The notes below the pieces were generated by a model, which did not search any database, was not told the DNA's origin, and worked only from the letters and a program-made list of their open reading frames with translations. The position numbers and the translations under genes are program-made. DNA of 41,002 nucleotides from Desulfurococcaceae archaeon (lineage in GTDB: Archaea > Thermoproteota > Thermoprotei_A > Sulfolobales > NBVN01), in NCBI GenBank assembly GCA_020833415.1, contig JAJHQJ010000007.1:1-41002 (forward strand), written 5' to 3'. Positions 5,329-31,404 of the stretch are shown in pieces. How positions within the stretch are numbered: the first letter of the stretch is position 1; each line of letters opens with the position of its first letter.

Positions 5329-6345
5329 GTGGAGGAGTCGACCGCGGGACTCAGCATGGCTAGGCAGTCTGCGGAGGGCGCAGCTAGGAGGAGGGCGGGC
5401 ATTCTTGAGGGTTCGGTATCCATAGTCGTTAACGCATCCCTCTTCATAGTTAAGTACGTACTCGGCGTAGAGCACAACTCCATAGCTGTAGTAGCAGACT
5501 CTGTCCATACGCTGTCGGATTCCCTAACGTCAGCTGTCGTCATAGTCGGGTTCCGGGTGTCCTATAAGCCGGCCGATGAGGAGCACCCACTCGGACACGG
5601 TAGGGCCGAGGCCATAGCTACCGTTATCATAGGTACGCTGCTGCTGGCGGTATCCTTCGACTTCCTTCAGAGGAGTGTTGCTAAGCTACTATCCGCCGAA
5701 CCCCTAGCCTTCAGCTGGGTTCTCGTAGTGGCCCTAACGGCCTCCACGGTAGTTAAGGAGGTCCTCGCCTCCTGGTCCCTAAGGCTGGGTAGGAGGTACG
5801 GAGCCCCCTCACTAGTAGCTGATGCGTGGCACCACAGGAGCGATGCTATAGCAACAGCCCTGCTAGCCCTAAGCATAGCCCTCGGCAGGGAGCTCTGGTG
5901 GCTGGACGGGGTCCTCGGGGTAGCTGTCTCGTGCCTCATAGCCTACACAGCCGTATCGCTCGTTACCTCAAGCTCTAGGGAACTCCTAGGTAGGGGCCCT
6001 ACGAGGGACGAGATCGAGAGACTCAGGGAGGTTGTCTACAGTACCTCCAGTAAGGTAGCAGACCTACACCACATCCACGTACATAGGTACGGGGGGCACA
6101 CCGAGGTAACGTTACACGTAAGGATGGACCCCTCTACAACTCTGGAGGAGGCCCACCGGGTAGCGTCGGAGGTGGAGAGGAGGATTAGGGAGGAACTAGG
6201 GTGGGAGGGGTTCAGCTCTCATATAGGTTCACATAGCTTGATGCGGTCATCGCATCATCTCCGTTCCCCCGCATCCCGCTCGGGACCTCATCGGGCTTGG
6301 GGGCGTTCAGGGCCACCCCGGAGACCCCACATCTTGAGTACCTAG
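5329..6345 (+). CDS. Cation diffusion facilitator (Zn/Co/Cd efflux), C-terminus replaced by element sequence
   Basis: A membrane transporter of the CDF family that exports divalent metal in exchange for protons. Site A ligands are visible: 'ADSVHTLSD' in the second helix and 'DAWHHRSDAI' in the fifth. Six hydrophobic helices lie between about residues 15 and 200, followed by a cytoplasmic domain with 'HHIHVHRYGGHTEV'. Family members normally end soon after a final 'TVHVEP'-like strand. Here the match stops at 'ELGWEG' (to 6210); the next 45 residues are antisense to the end of tnpB and unlike any CDF. The missing strand is found at 7648-7668, beyond the inserted element. I chose GTG at 5329, leaderless behind the TATA at 5300; an upstream ATG at 5311 is in frame. 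The protein may still work, since only the last strand is lost. Confidence 0.85.
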   Translation: MEESTAGLSMARQSAEGAARRRAGILEGSVSIVVNASLFIVKYVLGVEHNSIAVVADSVHTLSDSLTSAVVIVGFRVSYKPADEEHPLGHGRAEAIATVIIGTLLLAVSFDFLQRSVAKLLSAEPLAFSWVLVVALTASTVVKEVLASWSLRLGRRYGAPSLVADAWHHRSDAIATALLALSIALGRELWWLDGVLGVAVSCLIAYTAVSLVTSSSRELLGRGPTRDEIERLREVVYSTSSKVADLHHIHVHRYGGHTEVTLHVRMDPSTTLEEAHRVASEVERRIREELGWEGFSSHIGSHSLMRSSHHLRSPASRSGPHRAWGRSGPPRRPHILST

Positions 6346-7462
6346 ATACGTACTTCCCGTACAGGTTGAGTGTTGCTATAACATCCCTATCGCCTACGAA
6401 GCCACATTTCCCGCATCTCAGTACTCTGTATCCGCCCTCAGCTAGCCTACCACCACACCTAGGGCACCTCGAGGAAGTACCCCTAGGGTTGACCTTAACT
6501 ACCTCTAGGTTCCTCTCCCTAGCCTCGTACTCAACGCAGAACTGCACCCTACGGTAGAACCACAGCCCCAGCCTCTTGTTAAACTTCCTATCTCTCTTAC
6601 CGTTCTCTTTCAGCTTCTCCAGATCCTCGAGGATAATTAATGAGCGGTACTCAAGCGCTAGCTCAGCTACTAATTCCCCTAACTTGTGGGCGTAGTCCCA
6701 AGAGATGCTCCTAATCCTCTCGCCATGCCTCTCAATAGCCCTCCTAACGCCCCTGATGAACTTCCAAGACCTTGGGTATCTCCTCTGGATCCTCTCAATC
6801 CATATCCTGTGGGTCAGTACCTTCCTGTGAGGCGTCTTAAACCTCTTCAGCTTCACCGGTTTACCGCTAAGGGTGAACACTGCTAGCGTCACATTATCAA
6901 AGTTTAGGTCAACGGCCATAACTGTTCTGGGCTTCAACAGCTTAACGGTTCTCTTGAAGTATATCGAGACCCAGAACTCTCCATCCTCATACTTAACTAC
7001 TAGCTCGTAGTTACTCCAGCCCCTGAACCTCTCGACCCTCTCTTTAGATGTTACTAGCCTTAGCCTAACCTCGTAGTTGCTGTGTAGCTTCAGTGTTAGG
7101 GTCATGCTGTCTAGGTCTAGCCTGTAGTCGTACCTATCTACCCTAGCACTAAGCCTCCTGAGGACAGGCTTCCTACCACCGTTACCCCTAGCCGACTCCA
7201 CTAAACTATCAGCATATACGTACACCTCCTTAGCGTGGTGTGCCCTGAAACCAAGTCTCACTAAATCATCGTAGAACAGCCCGTGAAGCCTCTTCTTGGA
7301 TAACCTCTCACTGATACCCCAAATTCTATCAACGACCATCTGAACTGCATCACGGTACAGTCTCAGGAACTCCAGCAGCCTGTCACAGCTACCCTCGGGG
7401 AGAGCCCTCACCTTCAGGGCCTCGACAACTGCGGGCTCTTCACCCCTCACAGGGTAGCTCAC
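6212..7462 (-). CDS. tnpB: TnpB, RNA-guided RuvC nuclease of the IS605 group
   Basis: A 416-residue protein with the RuvC triad in order: D185 in 'VMAVDLNFDN', E279 in 'LIILEDLEKL', and the Asp of 'GDRDVIATLNL' (358/360). A zinc finger 'CPRCG...CGKCG' (C333, C336, C350, C353) sits between the last two. No key residue is missing, so it looks active. TnpB proteins use an omega RNA copied from the element's right end to cut the empty donor site and so keep the element in place. The stop codon is within 4 nt of the inferred element end, so any omega RNA must overlap the last codons. The start is GTG at 7462; a TTATACTTTATT stretch at about 7488-7500 is the likely promoter. It is antisense to the altered CDF tail. 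Confidence 0.9.
   Translation of the reverse strand: MSYPVRGEEPAVVEALKVRALPEGSCDRLLEFLRLYRDAVQMVVDRIWGISERLSKKRLHGLFYDDLVRLGFRAHHAKEVYVYADSLVESARGNGGRKPVLRRLSARVDRYDYRLDLDSMTLTLKLHSNYEVRLRLVTSKERVERFRGWSNYELVVKYEDGEFWVSIYFKRTVKLLKPRTVMAVDLNFDNVTLAVFTLSGKPVKLKRFKTPHRKVLTHRIWIERIQRRYPRSWKFIRGVRRAIERHGERIRSISWDYAHKLGELVAELALEYRSLIILEDLEKLKENGKRDRKFNKRLGLWFYRRVQFCVEYEARERNLEVVKVNPRGTSSRCPRCGGRLAEGGYRVLRCGKCGFVGDRDVIATLNLYGKYVSRYSRCGVSGVALNAPKPDEVPSGMRGNGDDAMTASSYVNLYES
6239..6257 (-). repeat. Right-end hairpin of the TnpB element
   Basis: TGATGCG and CGCATCA form a perfect 7-bp stem around a 5-nt loop, about 28 nt inside the inferred right end and within the last codons of tnpB. A subterminal hairpin at this place is the usual recognition structure of IS200/IS605 ends and would be part of the omega RNA. 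Confidence 0.5.
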
Positions 7463-8554: not shown

Positions 8555-8992
8555 CTAGATGTCTAGTACGAACCTAAGTATCCAGCGGTCGCCTAGGTTA
8601 AGTACCTCCATCTGGGAGTAGGTCACAGCCTTAACCTCGACCCTTGGTTCGTGCTTCTCAGAGTTGAAGACCTCGCCGAGGGCCCTACCCCTGAAGGCGT
8701 AGCCCCCCTCCTCAGCCCTGACGTAGTCTACCCTAAACTCGCTGAAGACGGTGTTGGACCTACCGTACTCCACTAGGAGGTCCTCGAGCCACCTGTAGAG
8801 GGCGTTCTCTAGGTCGAAGCCCCGGTCCTCGACTACGTACTCACGTACCGGCTCAACCCTGCTAGTATCCGTCATGACCTCGAACATAGCCTTGGCGGCC
8901 AGCTCGAAGGCCCTCTCGAGGGTCTTAGCGCAGACCTCTACGTATACGTCAGCCGTGTGCTCCAGGTACCTGAAGTAGTCGCAGACCTCCAC
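8555..8992 (-). CDS. Archease, RtcB RNA-ligase activator
   Basis: A small 145-residue protein with the archease signatures: 'YLEHTADVYVEV' near the N terminus, 'LYRWLEDLLVEY' in the middle, 'EVKAVTYSQMEV', and an acidic 'FVLDI' C terminus that ends at the metal-binding Asp. Archease speeds guanylylation of RtcB, the ligase that joins exons after the tRNA splicing endonuclease cuts. It matters here because cbf5 in the same window carries an intron of the type that endonuclease recognises. It sits 12 nt upstream of folP and 12 nt downstream of a DUF72 gene, likely one transcript; no rtcB is in the window. Confidence 0.9.
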   Translation of the reverse strand: MEVCDYFRYLEHTADVYVEVCAKTLERAFELAAKAMFEVMTDTSRVEPVREYVVEDRGFDLENALYRWLEDLLVEYGRSNTVFSEFRVDYVRAEEGGYAFRGRALGEVFNSEKHEPRVEVKAVTYSQMEVLNLGDRWILRFVLDI

Positions 8993-26223: not shown

Positions 26224-26446
26224 GGAAGCCCCGCCTTTTAAGGCTGGGAGGTAAAAGCTTACAGGTCTCTACTCCAGCATCTCTTGGAGTTGGGTGTAGG
26301 TGAGTCTAGCAGGTTGTGAGCCAGCACCTCCCCGTAGCTGGCGGCGGGGCCTGAACAGTGATGCCGCACCCGTGGGGGCTCCCGATAGATGGGGGAAGGC
26401 CCCAGAGGGTGCAGAGCCCCCGCCCTTTAGTGCGGGGAGCCGCCAG
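26224..26446 (+). mobile_element. GC-rich TnpB right-end relic(s) between the peroxiredoxin gene and cbf5
   Basis: Two hairpin-rich blocks. The first (26224-26252) holds CCCCGCC-TTTTAAGG-CTGGGAGG; the second (about 26355-26446) ends with CCCCCGCCCTTTAGTGCGGGG. The second block, AGAGGGTGCAGAGCCCCCGC, closely resembles the corresponding part of 31608-31640 and is the shape of a TnpB omega RNA 3' end. The final arm supplies the last codons and stop of cbf5. No tnpB coding sequence remains. An 11-mer, GATGCCGCACC (26360-26370), recurs at 31768-31778. Confidence 0.45.
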
Positions 26447-27469
26447 CCCTCTTCCTCCAGCTCCTTGGGTACACGTCCCTAGGTATCACAACCCTCCTAG
26501 TTTTGAAGGCTATACCCCTATCCTTAGCCAGGATCTCCTCAGTACTCATCAGTGCCTCGGCTAGGGCTACGAGTTCACCCTTAAGTGAGAAGAGAGCTAC
26601 TAGGTCACCCCGTCTAATACCCTCACTAACTACGGAGACCCCGGGTACTGCTAGGTCAGCTCCGTGCGCTACGGCTGCGATAGCTCCATCAAGTATAGCC
26701 ACCTTCGGTAGCTGAGCCACTATGTATTCGTGGGGCAGTATTACTGACTTCACAGCATCCTCCCTACCTAACTCCCGGTAGAGGTAAATGGCCTCGGAGA
26801 ACTCGTGCATCCTAATGGAGGTGTCCTCCCTAAACGGCCCGGTCCTAATCCTCCTAAGCTCCCGCATGTGAGCCCCGGTCCCTAGGACCTCCCCTATATC
26901 GTGTATCAGCTTCCTGACGTAGGTTCCGTGCTGACAGGCAACCCTAATCAGGACGTACTCACCCTCGAACTCCAGTACCTCGATTGCGTAGACCTCCTTA
27001 ACCCTCAGGGTCCTCTTAACTGAGGACCTAACCGGAGGCTTCTGGTATATCCTACCTACGAACTCCCTAACTACCTCCTCAAACCTCTCCCTATCTACAA
27101 TCCTGTGGAGCTGGGCTAGGGCTACGTACTCCTTATCCGAGTGTGACAGTACTCCGATCAGCTTAGTAGCATTTCCGGTAGCTACCGGTAGTACGCCGGA
27201 GACCTTGGGGTATCCCCGCCCCCTGTAGGGGGCTCTAGGGTCCCCCCATGACCTGCCTTCCCGATCTTCAGTAGCTCCTTAATCCAGGCCACTACCTCAT
27301 GGCTAGTAGGTCCCGGGGGCTTATCGAGATTTATCACTCCCGAGGATATCAGCTCCTCGGCGCTCCTAGACTTAGGGTGCTTACCGTACCTAGGGTCTGT
27401 CCCAGCCTCCCTCTTAACTATGTACCTCCTCTGGATCCCAGCGAAGGAGTCCAACTCCGTGAGGAACAT
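26427..27469 (-). CDS. cbf5: Cbf5/TruB tRNA/rRNA pseudouridine synthase, interrupted by a 23-nt intron
   Basis: The catalytic subunit of H/ACA guide RNPs. Exon 1 (27235-27469) ends in 'GKAGHGG-TL' and exon 2 (26427-27211) begins 'PKVSGVLPVATGNATKLIG', then 'HRIVDRERFEEVVREFVGRI', 'ACQHGTYVRKLIHDIGE', and a PUA domain with 'YPRSWRKR'. Without splicing, translation ends at a stop soon after 'GGTLEP'. Removing 27212-27234 joins them as T-L-D-P-K-V and restores the catalytic Asp. ATG at 27469 has GGAGGAGG 5 nt upstream; a TTG at 27484 is in frame. The spliced protein has about 339 residues. The last residues (AGGSPH) come from an adjoining element relic. Confidence 0.92.
27212..27234 (-). other. 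Archaeal protein-gene intron (bulge-helix-bulge) in cbf5
   Basis: The RNA can fold as: exon-1 GGGG paired with exon-2 CCCC; a 4-bp helix CCCT/GGGG; a 3-nt bulge AGA at the 5' site and ATA at the 3' site; and an intron hairpin GCCCCC-TACA-GGGGGC. Cutting each bulge after its second base gives exon ends CTAG and ACCCC, which join to CTA-GAC-CCC-AAG. The outer helix has one unpaired A, so the motif is slightly relaxed. Other crenarchaeal cbf5 genes have an intron at this same GTLDP site, cut by the tRNA splicing endonuclease. Confidence 0.88.
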
Positions 27470-27507
27470 GATCCCCTCCTCCAACTACTACACCTGACCA
27501 GAAGATC

Positions 27508-27999: not shown

Positions 28000-29334
28000 T
28001 TATACAGGTCTCGTATACCCCCACTTCTCGAGTGCTCTCCTAAGCTCCCGGTGCTCCTCAGCGTATACGTCGAGGGGTACCCCCTTTGCTATAGCCTCCA
28101 GGGCCTGCCTTACGGCTGCTGCACCGGCTCTAGGTCCGTCGGGGTGTCCTACAACCCCACCGCCTACCTGGATAACTACATCGGTACCCAGGTGCTTAAC
28201 TACCTCCGGTAGGGTCCCGGGGTGTAACCCCCCTGAGGCAACGGGGACTGCGGGCTTGATGTGGTGGAAGGATTGGTGTAGGTGTAGTACGTCTCCGGGT
28301 TCAGGTACGTAGGTACTCTCCCTGAGTAATCTGGAGTACCTAACCACGTCGACGGTCCTAGCCTCCAGCTTACCGACCTCCGGTGTACCTACGTGTAGCT
28401 GGTCCACCCCAACGACCCTGTAGAGCTTAGCTAGGGTGAACATGGATACCCCATGGAGGGGGTTCCTCGTGATAGCTGCGTGCATTGCCCTGTGTGCGTG
28501 TATGGCTAGTCCGTACTCCTCAGCTAGGTCCCTAACGTAGGTGAGGGAGGACCACCCGGCTATGACTACGTCGACCATTACGTAGGGGTTACCGTAGTCT
28601 GCCACCAGCTTAAGCCTCCTAGTCATCTCCCTAACGTCGGCAGTTATGTTGGCGAACCAGGCCTTCCTCTCACCAGTCTCCCTCTCGACCCTATCTATAG
28701 CCCTCATAATAGCCCTAGCCCTAGCCTCGAACCTACAGTAGCTTGGGCTAGCTAGGTTCTCATCGTCCTTAACGTAGTCGAGCCCCCCTACGAGGATCTC
28801 GTACGCAAGTCTCTCAACCTCCTCAGGTGAGTAACCGACCTTAGGCTTCGGCACCGTACCCGCTATAGGTCTACCGTAGACCCTGAAGATACTCCTAACC
28901 CCGTCCAACCCCTTCAGCGGCCCCTTAAACCACTCAAGGAAAACCCTGGGTAGGTAGATATCCTCAACCCTAAGCCACTTAACCCTCCTCATACCGAATA
29001 CGTTACCAGCTACAGATGCTAGGAATGCCGGTAGGTTCCCCTCCTCGAACAGCTCCACAGGGTAGGCTACGTAAACGGAGTAGCTACCGTCCCCTAGGTC
29101 TACGAAGCGGAAGGCCCTCCCCTTCAACCTCTCTAGCCGAGTCTCATCATACCAGGTGTAGAGGGTTGTCCAAGTACCTACGCTACTCTCAGCAGCTACA
29201 GCCCCAGCCGCGTCCTCAATACTGAACCCGCTAGCCGGTACCACTCTAAAGGATACCACGACGTAGCTCTCGAGGTCGGGGCTGAATGACCTATCTACGA
29301 AGGCGTTGTAAGGCTCAAACTCCTCGGTTTCCAC
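28000..29334 (-). CDS. rbcL: RuBisCO large subunit, archaeal form III
   Basis: A 444-residue carboxylase that turns ribulose-1,5-bisphosphate and CO2 into two 3-phosphoglycerate. Catalytic residues are complete: K163 in 'GTVPKPKVG', carbamylated K189 with D191 and E192 in 'YVKDDEN', H281 in 'HAHRAMH', H314 in 'QLHVGTP', K322 of loop 6 in 'VGKLEA', and 'ASGGLHPG' plus 'GGGVVGHP' for phosphate binding. There is no small-subunit gene, and the sequence is form III-like, so it most likely works in AMP/nucleoside salvage. It faces the isomerase genes across a single TATA box. Confidence 0.93.
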   Translation of the reverse strand: METEEFEPYNAFVDRSFSPDLESYVVVSFRVVPASGFSIEDAAGAVAAESSVGTWTTLYTWYDETRLERLKGRAFRFVDLGDGSYSVYVAYPVELFEEGNLPAFLASVAGNVFGMRRVKWLRVEDIYLPRVFLEWFKGPLKGLDGVRSIFRVYGRPIAGTVPKPKVGYSPEEVERLAYEILVGGLDYVKDDENLASPSYCRFEARARAIMRAIDRVERETGERKAWFANITADVREMTRRLKLVADYGNPYVMVDVVIAGWSSLTYVRDLAEEYGLAIHAHRAMHAAITRNPLHGVSMFTLAKLYRVVGVDQLHVGTPEVGKLEARTVDVVRYSRLLRESTYVPEPGDVLHLHQSFHHIKPAVPVASGGLHPGTLPEVVKHLGTDVVIQVGGGVVGHPDGPRAGAAAVRQALEAIAKGVPLDVYAEEHRELRRALEKWGYTRPV

Positions 29335-29361
29335 GGTCCCACCCGGAAAGCTACTGACTAC

Positions 29362-29372
29362 ATATATAATAA
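29362..29372. promoter_or_regulatory. Single TATA box shared by rbcL and the IF2B-like/isomerase genes
   Basis: ATATATAATAA lies 70 nt from gene to gene in the middle of the divergent gap. Its centre is about 33 nt from the rbcL ATG and 39 nt from the rightward ATG at 29405, so both transcripts would have leaders of roughly 6-13 nt. No other AT-rich box is present. Confidence 0.55.
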
Positions 29373-29404
29373 GCTGGAGACAACTAGGTAGTTAAGAGGT
29401 AGCT

Positions 29405-30412
29405 ATGGACTGCCCCAGAGCTGTTGAAGGCTATAGCAGGGTCGTCGGGGAGGTATCCGAGGCAAGGGTCCCCGGGTCTACGGAGGCTGCTCTGAGGGTA
29501 GTGCAGGCACTAGCCGACGTCCTGAGGTACTGCGATAGTGACGTACCTAAGCTACTACTGCAACTAGTCGGTAAGGCCCTCCAGGCTAGACCTGGTTCCC
29601 AGACTGTACGTAGTATTACCCACCTCTTCCTCAGGAGGGTACTCGAGTTCGTGCCAAGCTCCGGTACAGGTAACCCGCGGGGTGAGGCCGTCGATAGGGC
29701 CCTAGCCGAGGTTTTGAATTACGTTGAGGGGGTTAGGGAGGTTATATCTGAGATAGGCTCGAGGAGACTCGAGCCTGGGGACGTAGTCTTGACGTACTCG
29801 TACAGCACCACAGTCCTCAGAGTACTGGAGAGGGCAGCTAAGCGCGGGGTGGACTTCGAGGTGTACGTAGCTGAGTCCAGACCTATAGCTGAGGGTAGAC
29901 TGATGGCCTCAGCCCTCGGTAAGCTGGGTATTAGGACTACCCTAGTAGTCGACTCCGCCATCAGGTACGTAATGAAGAGAGTTAGTAAGGCATTCGTAGG
30001 TGCTGAAGCTGTAGCAGCTAACGGTGCTGTAGTAGGTAAGGTAGGTACATCGGTAGTTGCTCTAGTAGCTAAGGAGGCTAGGGTTAGGTTCTACGTAGCG
30101 GCAGGGCTCTACAAGTTCAGTCCGGAGACGGTCTTCGGGGACCTAGTAGCTATCGGGGAGCTGGAGAATCCCGAGCTCATCGTACCCCAGGACCGTCTAG
30201 GGGAGGTAGCACCGTACCTGGGTAGGGGTATAAGGACTAGGACCCCCCTCTACGATGTAACCCCTCCGGAGTACGTGGATGCCGTGATAACTGAGAGGGG
30301 GCTTATAGCTCCACAGCTGGTCTTCTACTTTGCTAGGGAGTTCTTCGGGGTAGATGCCCAGTACGTAGGTGTGGAGAAGTTAGCTGAGGAGGTGGGTAGG
30401 CTTTGGAGCTAG
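29405..30412 (+). CDS. IF2B alpha/beta/delta-like protein, ribose-1,5-bisphosphate isomerase paralog with altered active site
   Basis: A 335-residue protein of the eIF2B regulatory-subunit/R15P isomerase family: an N-terminal helical bundle and a C-terminal Rossmann-like domain with 'VVLTYSYSTTVLRVL', 'YVAESRPIAEGRLMA', 'FVGAEAVAANGAVVGKVGT' and 'YDVTPPEYVDAVITERG'. In its neighbour and in studied R15P isomerases the catalytic Cys sits in 'THCHS' and the Asp in 'GADTI'; here they are S132 and E201. It is therefore probably a regulatory or IF2B-like protein, or a partner subunit of the next gene. It overlaps that gene by 10 nt. Confidence 0.82.
   Translation: MDCPRAVEGYSRVVGEVSEARVPGSTEAALRVVQALADVLRYCDSDVPKLLLQLVGKALQARPGSQTVRSITHLFLRRVLEFVPSSGTGNPRGEAVDRALAEVLNYVEGVREVISEIGSRRLEPGDVVLTYSYSTTVLRVLERAAKRGVDFEVYVAESRPIAEGRLMASALGKLGIRTTLVVDSAIRYVMKRVSKAFVGAEAVAANGAVVGKVGTSVVALVAKEARVRFYVAAGLYKFSPETVFGDLVAIGELENPELIVPQDRLGEVAPYLGRGIRTRTPLYDVTPPEYVDAVITERGLIAPQLVFYFAREFFGVDAQYVGVEKLAEEVGRLWS
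30053..30099 (+). repeat. 47-nt tract identical to 31063-31109 in the next gene
   Basis: The segment coding 'VVALVAKEARVRFYV' in this gene is identical base for base to 31063-31109, including third codon positions. A 19-nt match TAGCAGCTAACGGTGCTGT also lies just upstream in both. Elsewhere the two genes differ widely, which suggests recent gene conversion over about 90 bp. Confidence 0.8.
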
Positions 30413-31404
30413 GTGGCTTCAGGATCCCGGAGGAGGTTGTGAGGATAAGGGAGGGTATAAGGACCATGAGGATAAGGGGGGCTGGAAACATAGCTAGGAA
30501 CGGGGCTCTAGCCCTCGCTATAGCTGCGGAGAGGTTCTCTGGGAGCGACCTAGAGGCTTTCCTGAAGTACATGGGGCTGGTCGCGGACTACGTGAGGAGC
30601 TCTAGACCTACAGCCGTATCCCTACCCAATGCGGTGTCCTACGTTATGAGTAGGCTGGAGCGGTCTAGGCCTACCTCAGTTGATGACGCTAGGAGGGCCG
30701 TGGTGGAGGCATCGAAGGAATTCATAGAATACTCCGAGAACGCTGTAAAGCTGATAGGGGAGCTGGGGGCTAGGAGGATAGAGCGTGGAGACATCCTAAT
30801 GACGCACTGCCACAGTACGGTAGCAGTATCAGTTATAGTTACAGCCTTTAGGCAGGGTAAGGTTGAGAGGGTCTACGTAAAGGAGACTAGGCCCGCCTTC
30901 CAGGGCCTGATAACGGCTAGGGAGTTAGCTAAGGAGGGGGTTGAGGTAGTCCTCATACCGGACTCGGCTGTAAGGTACTACATGAAGAAGGTAGATAAGG
31001 TCGTGGTTGGTGCAGACACCATAGCAGCTAACGGTGCTGTGGTGAACAAGATCGGTACCTCAGTAGTTGCTCTAGTAGCTAAGGAGGCTAGGGTTAGGTT
31101 CTACGTAGCTAGCGAGACGTACAAGTTCAGCCCCTACACCATCCTAGGCGAGCTAGTACCGATAGAGGTGCGGGACCCAACTGAGGTGGTAGACCCCGGC
31201 TGGTTAGCGGAGAACCCGAACGTCCAGGTATTCAACCCTGTCTTCGACGTAACCCCACCTGAGTACGTAGATGCTGTAATAACGGAGAGGGGGGTTATAC
31301 CACCTCAGCTAGCGGCACTAATCCTCATAGAGCAGTATGGTGTTAAGCTACTAGATGCCTACCCAGCACACCGTAGCCTAGGGCTACACGTAGACACGGA
31401 GTAG
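30403..31404 (+). CDS. e2b2: Ribose-1,5-bisphosphate isomerase
   Basis: A 333-residue enzyme that converts ribose-1,5-bisphosphate to ribulose-1,5-bisphosphate for RuBisCO. Key features of the archaeal R15P isomerase are present: 'IRTMRIRGAGNIARNGALAL' near the N terminus, catalytic C136 in 'LMTHCHSTV', D205 in 'VVGADTIAANGAVVNKIGT', and 'FDVTPPEYVDAVITERG'. Both catalytic positions are offset by +3 from the characterised Thermococcus enzyme. The start is TTG with GGAGGTGGG upstream, inside the end of the previous gene. AMP phosphorylase, the first enzyme of this pathway, is not in the window. Confidence 0.9.
   Translation: MELGGFRIPEEVVRIREGIRTMRIRGAGNIARNGALALAIAAERFSGSDLEAFLKYMGLVADYVRSSRPTAVSLPNAVSYVMSRLERSRPTSVDDARRAVVEASKEFIEYSENAVKLIGELGARRIERGDILMTHCHSTVAVSVIVTAFRQGKVERVYVKETRPAFQGLITARELAKEGVEVVLIPDSAVRYYMKKVDKVVVGADTIAANGAVVNKIGTSVVALVAKEARVRFYVASETYKFSPYTILGELVPIEVRDPTEVVDPGWLAENPNVQVFNPVFDVTPPEYVDAVITERGVIPPQLAALILIEQYGVKLLDAYPAHRSLGLHVDTE

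Follow-up and report, generated by a model that had tools for sequence, protein, structure and literature searches.

Cbf5 is an RNA-modifying enzyme, and the host of the locus discussed here is a heat-loving archaeon. In addition to the study outlined below, the intron in archaeal cbf5 pre-mRNA was reportedly described by Watanabe in 2002 and Yoshinari in 2006. According to Yokobori 2009, cbf5 introns interrupt the codon of the catalytic Asp after its first letter, measure 16-44 nt (23 nt in S. shibatae) and mostly adopt unconventional bulge-helix-bulge (BHB) motifs, while spliced cDNA and endonuclease evidence are available for several species (PMC2738675). The gain of the intron was placed in the ancestor shared by Desulfurococcales and Sulfolobales, with none found in Thermoproteales, Thermofilum, Korarchaeum and Thaumarchaeota (PMC2738675). 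A 2020 paper cited cbf5 of Crenarchaeota as the only other BHB intron in an mRNA and added a case from a 5' UTR, Haloferax HVO_1309 (PMC7714728).

The window analyzed here, i.e. the whole stretch of 41,002 nucleotides, contains a cbf5 gene that is interrupted at this codon. Its host falls inside the published Desulfurococcales/Sulfolobales range, its nearest named relatives being MAGs titled Desulfurococcales or Sulfolobales archaeon. With the published introns, that of the window shares the gene, the phase within the Asp codon, a BHB-like motif, a length between 16 and 44 nt and the broad order; it differs in the sequence of its hairpin, and the genome is not in the 2009 list. The wider survey presented below departs further from the published introns, as it reaches 67 nt and lineages beyond the two published orders. 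BHB introns of archaeal pre-tRNA and pre-rRNA have the motif type and presumably the same endonuclease and ligase in common with the cbf5 intron, which differs in that it resides in an mRNA, is very short and lacks a homing endonuclease. In the Haloferax case, an mRNA likewise serves as substrate of the splicing endonuclease, but this intron is euryarchaeal and sits in a 5' UTR, whereas that of the window interrupts a coding codon. Judged from its sequence, the window's intron is itself already understood, its site and probable mechanism being those of the intron of Watanabe 2002 and Yokobori 2009. The remark in a preliminary description of this DNA that introns at this place are established in crenarchaeal cbf5 genes agrees with the published position (PMC2738675), whereas its impression that the length is specific does not hold, since a published intron, that of S. 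shibatae, has the same length of 23 nt, as do introns in relatives.

The interrupted cbf5 gene and its predicted splicing

On the minus strand, exon 1 of cbf5 (27235-27469) starts at ATG and ends with the G that opens the codon for the catalytic Asp79, comprising 78 codons plus 1 nt with the DKCLD domain; an alternative TTG start of the open reading frame lies at 27484. Exon 2 (26427-27211) begins with the remaining two bases of this codon, reaches to the stop and encodes the rest of TruB_N as well as TruB_C_2 and PUA. Between them lies the 23-nt intron AGCCCCCTACAGGGGGCGGGGAT (27234-27212, minus strand, by sequence check), which is supported by sequence, frame and relatives and occurs only once in the 1.25-Mb assembly. 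Around the cut sites, the minus strand reads ...GGG GGA CCC TAG, followed by agccccctacagggggcggggat and then ACC CCA AGG..., the Asp79 codon being split after its first base (G/AC). When AGA and ATA are each cut behind their second base, the junction reads CTA-G/AC-CCC-AAG, and joining 27469-27235 to 27211-26427 affords one open Cbf5 frame of 339 aa. The spliced protein harbors DKCLD, TruB_N, TruB_C_2 and PUA domains (Pfam) and matches the PDB Cbf5 2HVY at 1e-109; in an alignment, its TLDPK is in register with GGTLDPK of P. furiosus Cbf5. The preliminary description, which had placed 23 nt at 27212-27234 within cbf5 and proposed that their removal restores the frame and the catalytic Asp, was right about coordinates, length, cut sites and the resulting protein. 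It had miscounted the unspliced frame, which continues for 15 rather than 11 codons past GGTLEP (PTGGGDTPRSPAYYR) to a stop at 27184-27182 and totals 100 codons counted from the TTG at 27484. By itself, this single case is ordinary and mainly warns of gene callers splitting cbf5 in this genome.

Elsewhere in the window, a minus-strand gene for the RuBisCO large chain (PF00016) adjoins two tandem plus-strand genes within 28000-31404, the latter being assigned by eye as putative ribose-1,5-bisphosphate isomerase/eIF2B-type genes. An ORF at 6212-7462 with C-terminal zinc-finger motifs may, also by eye, encode a TnpB/OrfB-type transposon protein.

In the predicted RNA fold, the central helix consists of CCCT on the exon side (27237-27240, inside the Thr-Leu codons ACC CTA) paired with GGGG on the intron side (27214-27217), and the intron forms a GCCCCC-TACA-GGGGGC hairpin (27218-27233) that is backed by the fold and by covariation across relatives. 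The 5' bulge AGA (27234-27236) comprises A27236, G27235 and A27234 with a predicted cut after 27235, a phase common to 57 of 57 distinct sites; in the 3' bulge ATA (27211-27213), made up of A27213, T27212 and A27211, the predicted cut follows 27212. The fold is hence BHB-like with predicted cuts between bulge residues 2 and 3, in a version relaxed on the 3' side, where GGA opposite the ATA bulge generates a 3x3 loop instead of a clean 3-nt bulge. The earlier designation as a bulge-helix-bulge intron is supported by all sequence evidence; the motif itself is not of the canonical form. When a 54-nt segment is folded at 37 °C, a competing hairpin has the lowest energy; the BHB-like fold takes this rank for longer segments at the same temperature and also at 60 and 80 °C. 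With this competing fold and a z of only -2.0, folding energy was dropped as stand-alone evidence.

The genome encodes two PF01974 proteins. One has its best match in 3P1Z_B (A. pernix B chain, 6e-51) and shows, in an alignment read by eye, the Tyr, His and Lys that a catalytic subunit should retain; the other best matches 3P1Z_A (A. pernix A chain, 1.5e-11). These are predicted to be both subunits of a crenarchaeal-type (hetero-oligomeric) splicing endonuclease. The RtcB gene is found on contig 54, outside the window (4e-174), and the RtcB ligase activator archease is encoded at 8555-8992 on the minus strand (PF01951, E=3e-41), as had been noted previously. Endonuclease gene number was also considered as a reason for intron presence and rejected, as intron-bearing and intronless genomes both have about two genes.

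In the proposed mechanism, CCCU of exon 1 would pair with GGGG at the 3' end of the intron over 4 bp, and this helix would be flanked on either side by a bulge of 3 nt. Both bulges would then be cut behind their second base by the two-subunit endonuclease, before RtcB joins the exons with the aid of archease and thereby recreates the GAC codon of Asp79. From unspliced mRNA, only a peptide cut short at about 95-100 residues and lacking the catalytic domain would be made. By homology to the cDNA-proven cases, cutting and ligation probably take place in this organism as well.

Introns in relatives and alternative readings

All six genus siblings, each a separate assembly, have an intron at the identical base, with lengths of 20, 20, 20, 20, 20 and 47 nt and with different sequences, also among the five 20-nt introns. 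Every family member with a script-readable site carries an intron at the same place, the sequences again differing. A larger set comprises 57 distinct sites from relatives, nearly all of them of the window's class; it includes 'Thermofilum sp. ex4484_15' (L086), which groups with Thermofilales-like sequences in the tree discussed below. The pair adjoining the 5' bulge is GC at 43 sites, AT at 8, TA at 3 and GT at 3, with no mismatch in 57. Contiguous arm pairing averages 7.5 bp vs 0.7 in shuffled interiors, and sliding the partner by 1-2 leaves no more than 0.4. Intron lengths spread over all three frames (25/14/18), which argues against selection keeping an unspliced frame; frame conservation as a sign of an unspliced product was thus ruled out.

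A further pattern concerns the Thr-Leu codons, which are ACC-CTA in 51 of 57 intron-bearing vs 0 of 33 intronless genes, these being raw counts that ignore kinship. The intronless set, non-Thermoproteota included, displays 16 other Thr-Leu codon combinations; ACC-CTA does occur in two contiguous cbf5 genes (G433, G517) of the phylum-wide scan. Within the window's genes, ACC accounts for 43% of Thr and CTA for 35% of Leu codons. The synonymous ACC-CTA constraint is what an RNA-level constraint predicts and would be explained by the central helix.

On this sequence evidence, there is hardly any doubt that the 23 nt represent a BHB-type cbf5 pre-mRNA intron of Thermoproteota, which would be spliced by the endonuclease and RtcB/archease. 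An insertion caused by sequencing or assembly, with the 23 nt absent from the organism's real genome, deserves virtually no credence: the assembly is indeed a draft (82% complete, 85 contigs), but the six siblings have introns at the same base that differ in sequence and length, and the hairpin arms co-vary among relatives. Alternatively, full-length Cbf5 could come about without RNA splicing, by ribosomes hopping over the hairpin or by a programmed frameshift. A strong hairpin does sit at the frame break, and related cases were formerly annotated as frameshifts (PMC2738675). Yet, one frameshift could not serve introns of 18-67 nt whose lengths represent all three frames and are in part divisible by 3, the bulge and helix geometry suits the endonuclease, and splicing has been proven by cDNA in several species (PMC2738675), which renders this route very improbable.

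Regulated retention, in which the unspliced mRNA would be a deliberate down-regulating form of Cbf5, is compatible with splicing by the endonuclease and RtcB/archease. A negative regulatory role was proposed by the authors who studied the intron (PMC2738675), and the position in the catalytic codon fits with an inactive unspliced product; many relatives do without the intron, however, and such a function appears unlikely.

Distribution and origin of the intron

A pattern scan of 229 genomes from the window's class detected the intron in 140 and a contiguous cbf5 in 28. Two families, f7 and f6, have contiguous genes only; from this absence pattern it may be guessed that they resemble Pyrodictiaceae and Ignicoccus, in agreement with the literature (PMC2738675). 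The same type of scan over 398 genomes drawn across the phylum returned about 60 more matches outside the class. Fetching 46 of these out-of-class loci (L137-L182), from 27 families, gave, in all cases, a Cbf5 of 286-345 aa when spliced vs 36-112 aa unspliced, with introns of 18-34 nt. Three suspect pattern matches (G487, G247 and G005 contig 5) turned out upon fetching not to be Cbf5. The search pattern demanded CCCT, GGG and the phase, so that likenesses in these features are not independent and introns built otherwise escape; the arms, which it did not demand, pair over a mean of 4.35 bp vs 0.7 when shuffled. The out-of-class introns include Thermofilales-like and Bathyarchaeota-like branches (labels taken from the tree neighbours L094, L086 and L088), often beside intronless sisters.

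Some cbf5 introns exceed the published maximum of 44 nt, namely those of L109 (67 nt), L071 (57 nt), and L010 and L031 (47 nt). In addition, L005, L006 and L007 (family f1, genus g8) feature 27-nt introns that begin with T rather than A and whose central helix contains AGGG in place of GGGG.

As predicted from these genomes, the survey shows that the cbf5 intron is far more widespread than the Desulfurococcales/Sulfolobales range in the literature found. No published report of a wider range was encountered in the open-access papers searched. What is new here, with moderate novelty, is the phylum-wide range.

In a quick tree of 179 Cbf5 proteins, with SH-aLRT support only and low values at deep nodes, the intron state needs 22 changes vs a mean of 58 for shuffled labels (minimum 49 of 200). 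Intron-bearing sequences cluster with their own family-mates, which argues against contamination. In one genus (f17 g120, support 95), two species have the intron (G440, G286) and two do not (G541, G430). Parsimony at equal costs yields 13 gains and 9 losses, at a gain cost of 1.5-3 an intron at the root with 1 gain and 22 losses, and at a gain cost of 5 or more 27 losses; since the answer flips with the gain cost, parsimony was rejected as arbiter between gain and loss.

Hence, either the intron is much older than its published origin and underwent about 22 or more losses, or it was gained repeatedly at one codon. Conceivably, cbf5 of the Thermoproteota common ancestor already contained the intron, and some twenty or more precise losses followed, reaching down to species within a genus, a tentative scenario of slightly less than even probability. 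Taken together, the wide and patchy range casts doubt on a single ancestor of two orders as the origin of the intron, and the close pairs of intron-bearing and intronless relatives provide material for studying how an intron is precisely lost from, or gained at, a single catalytic codon.
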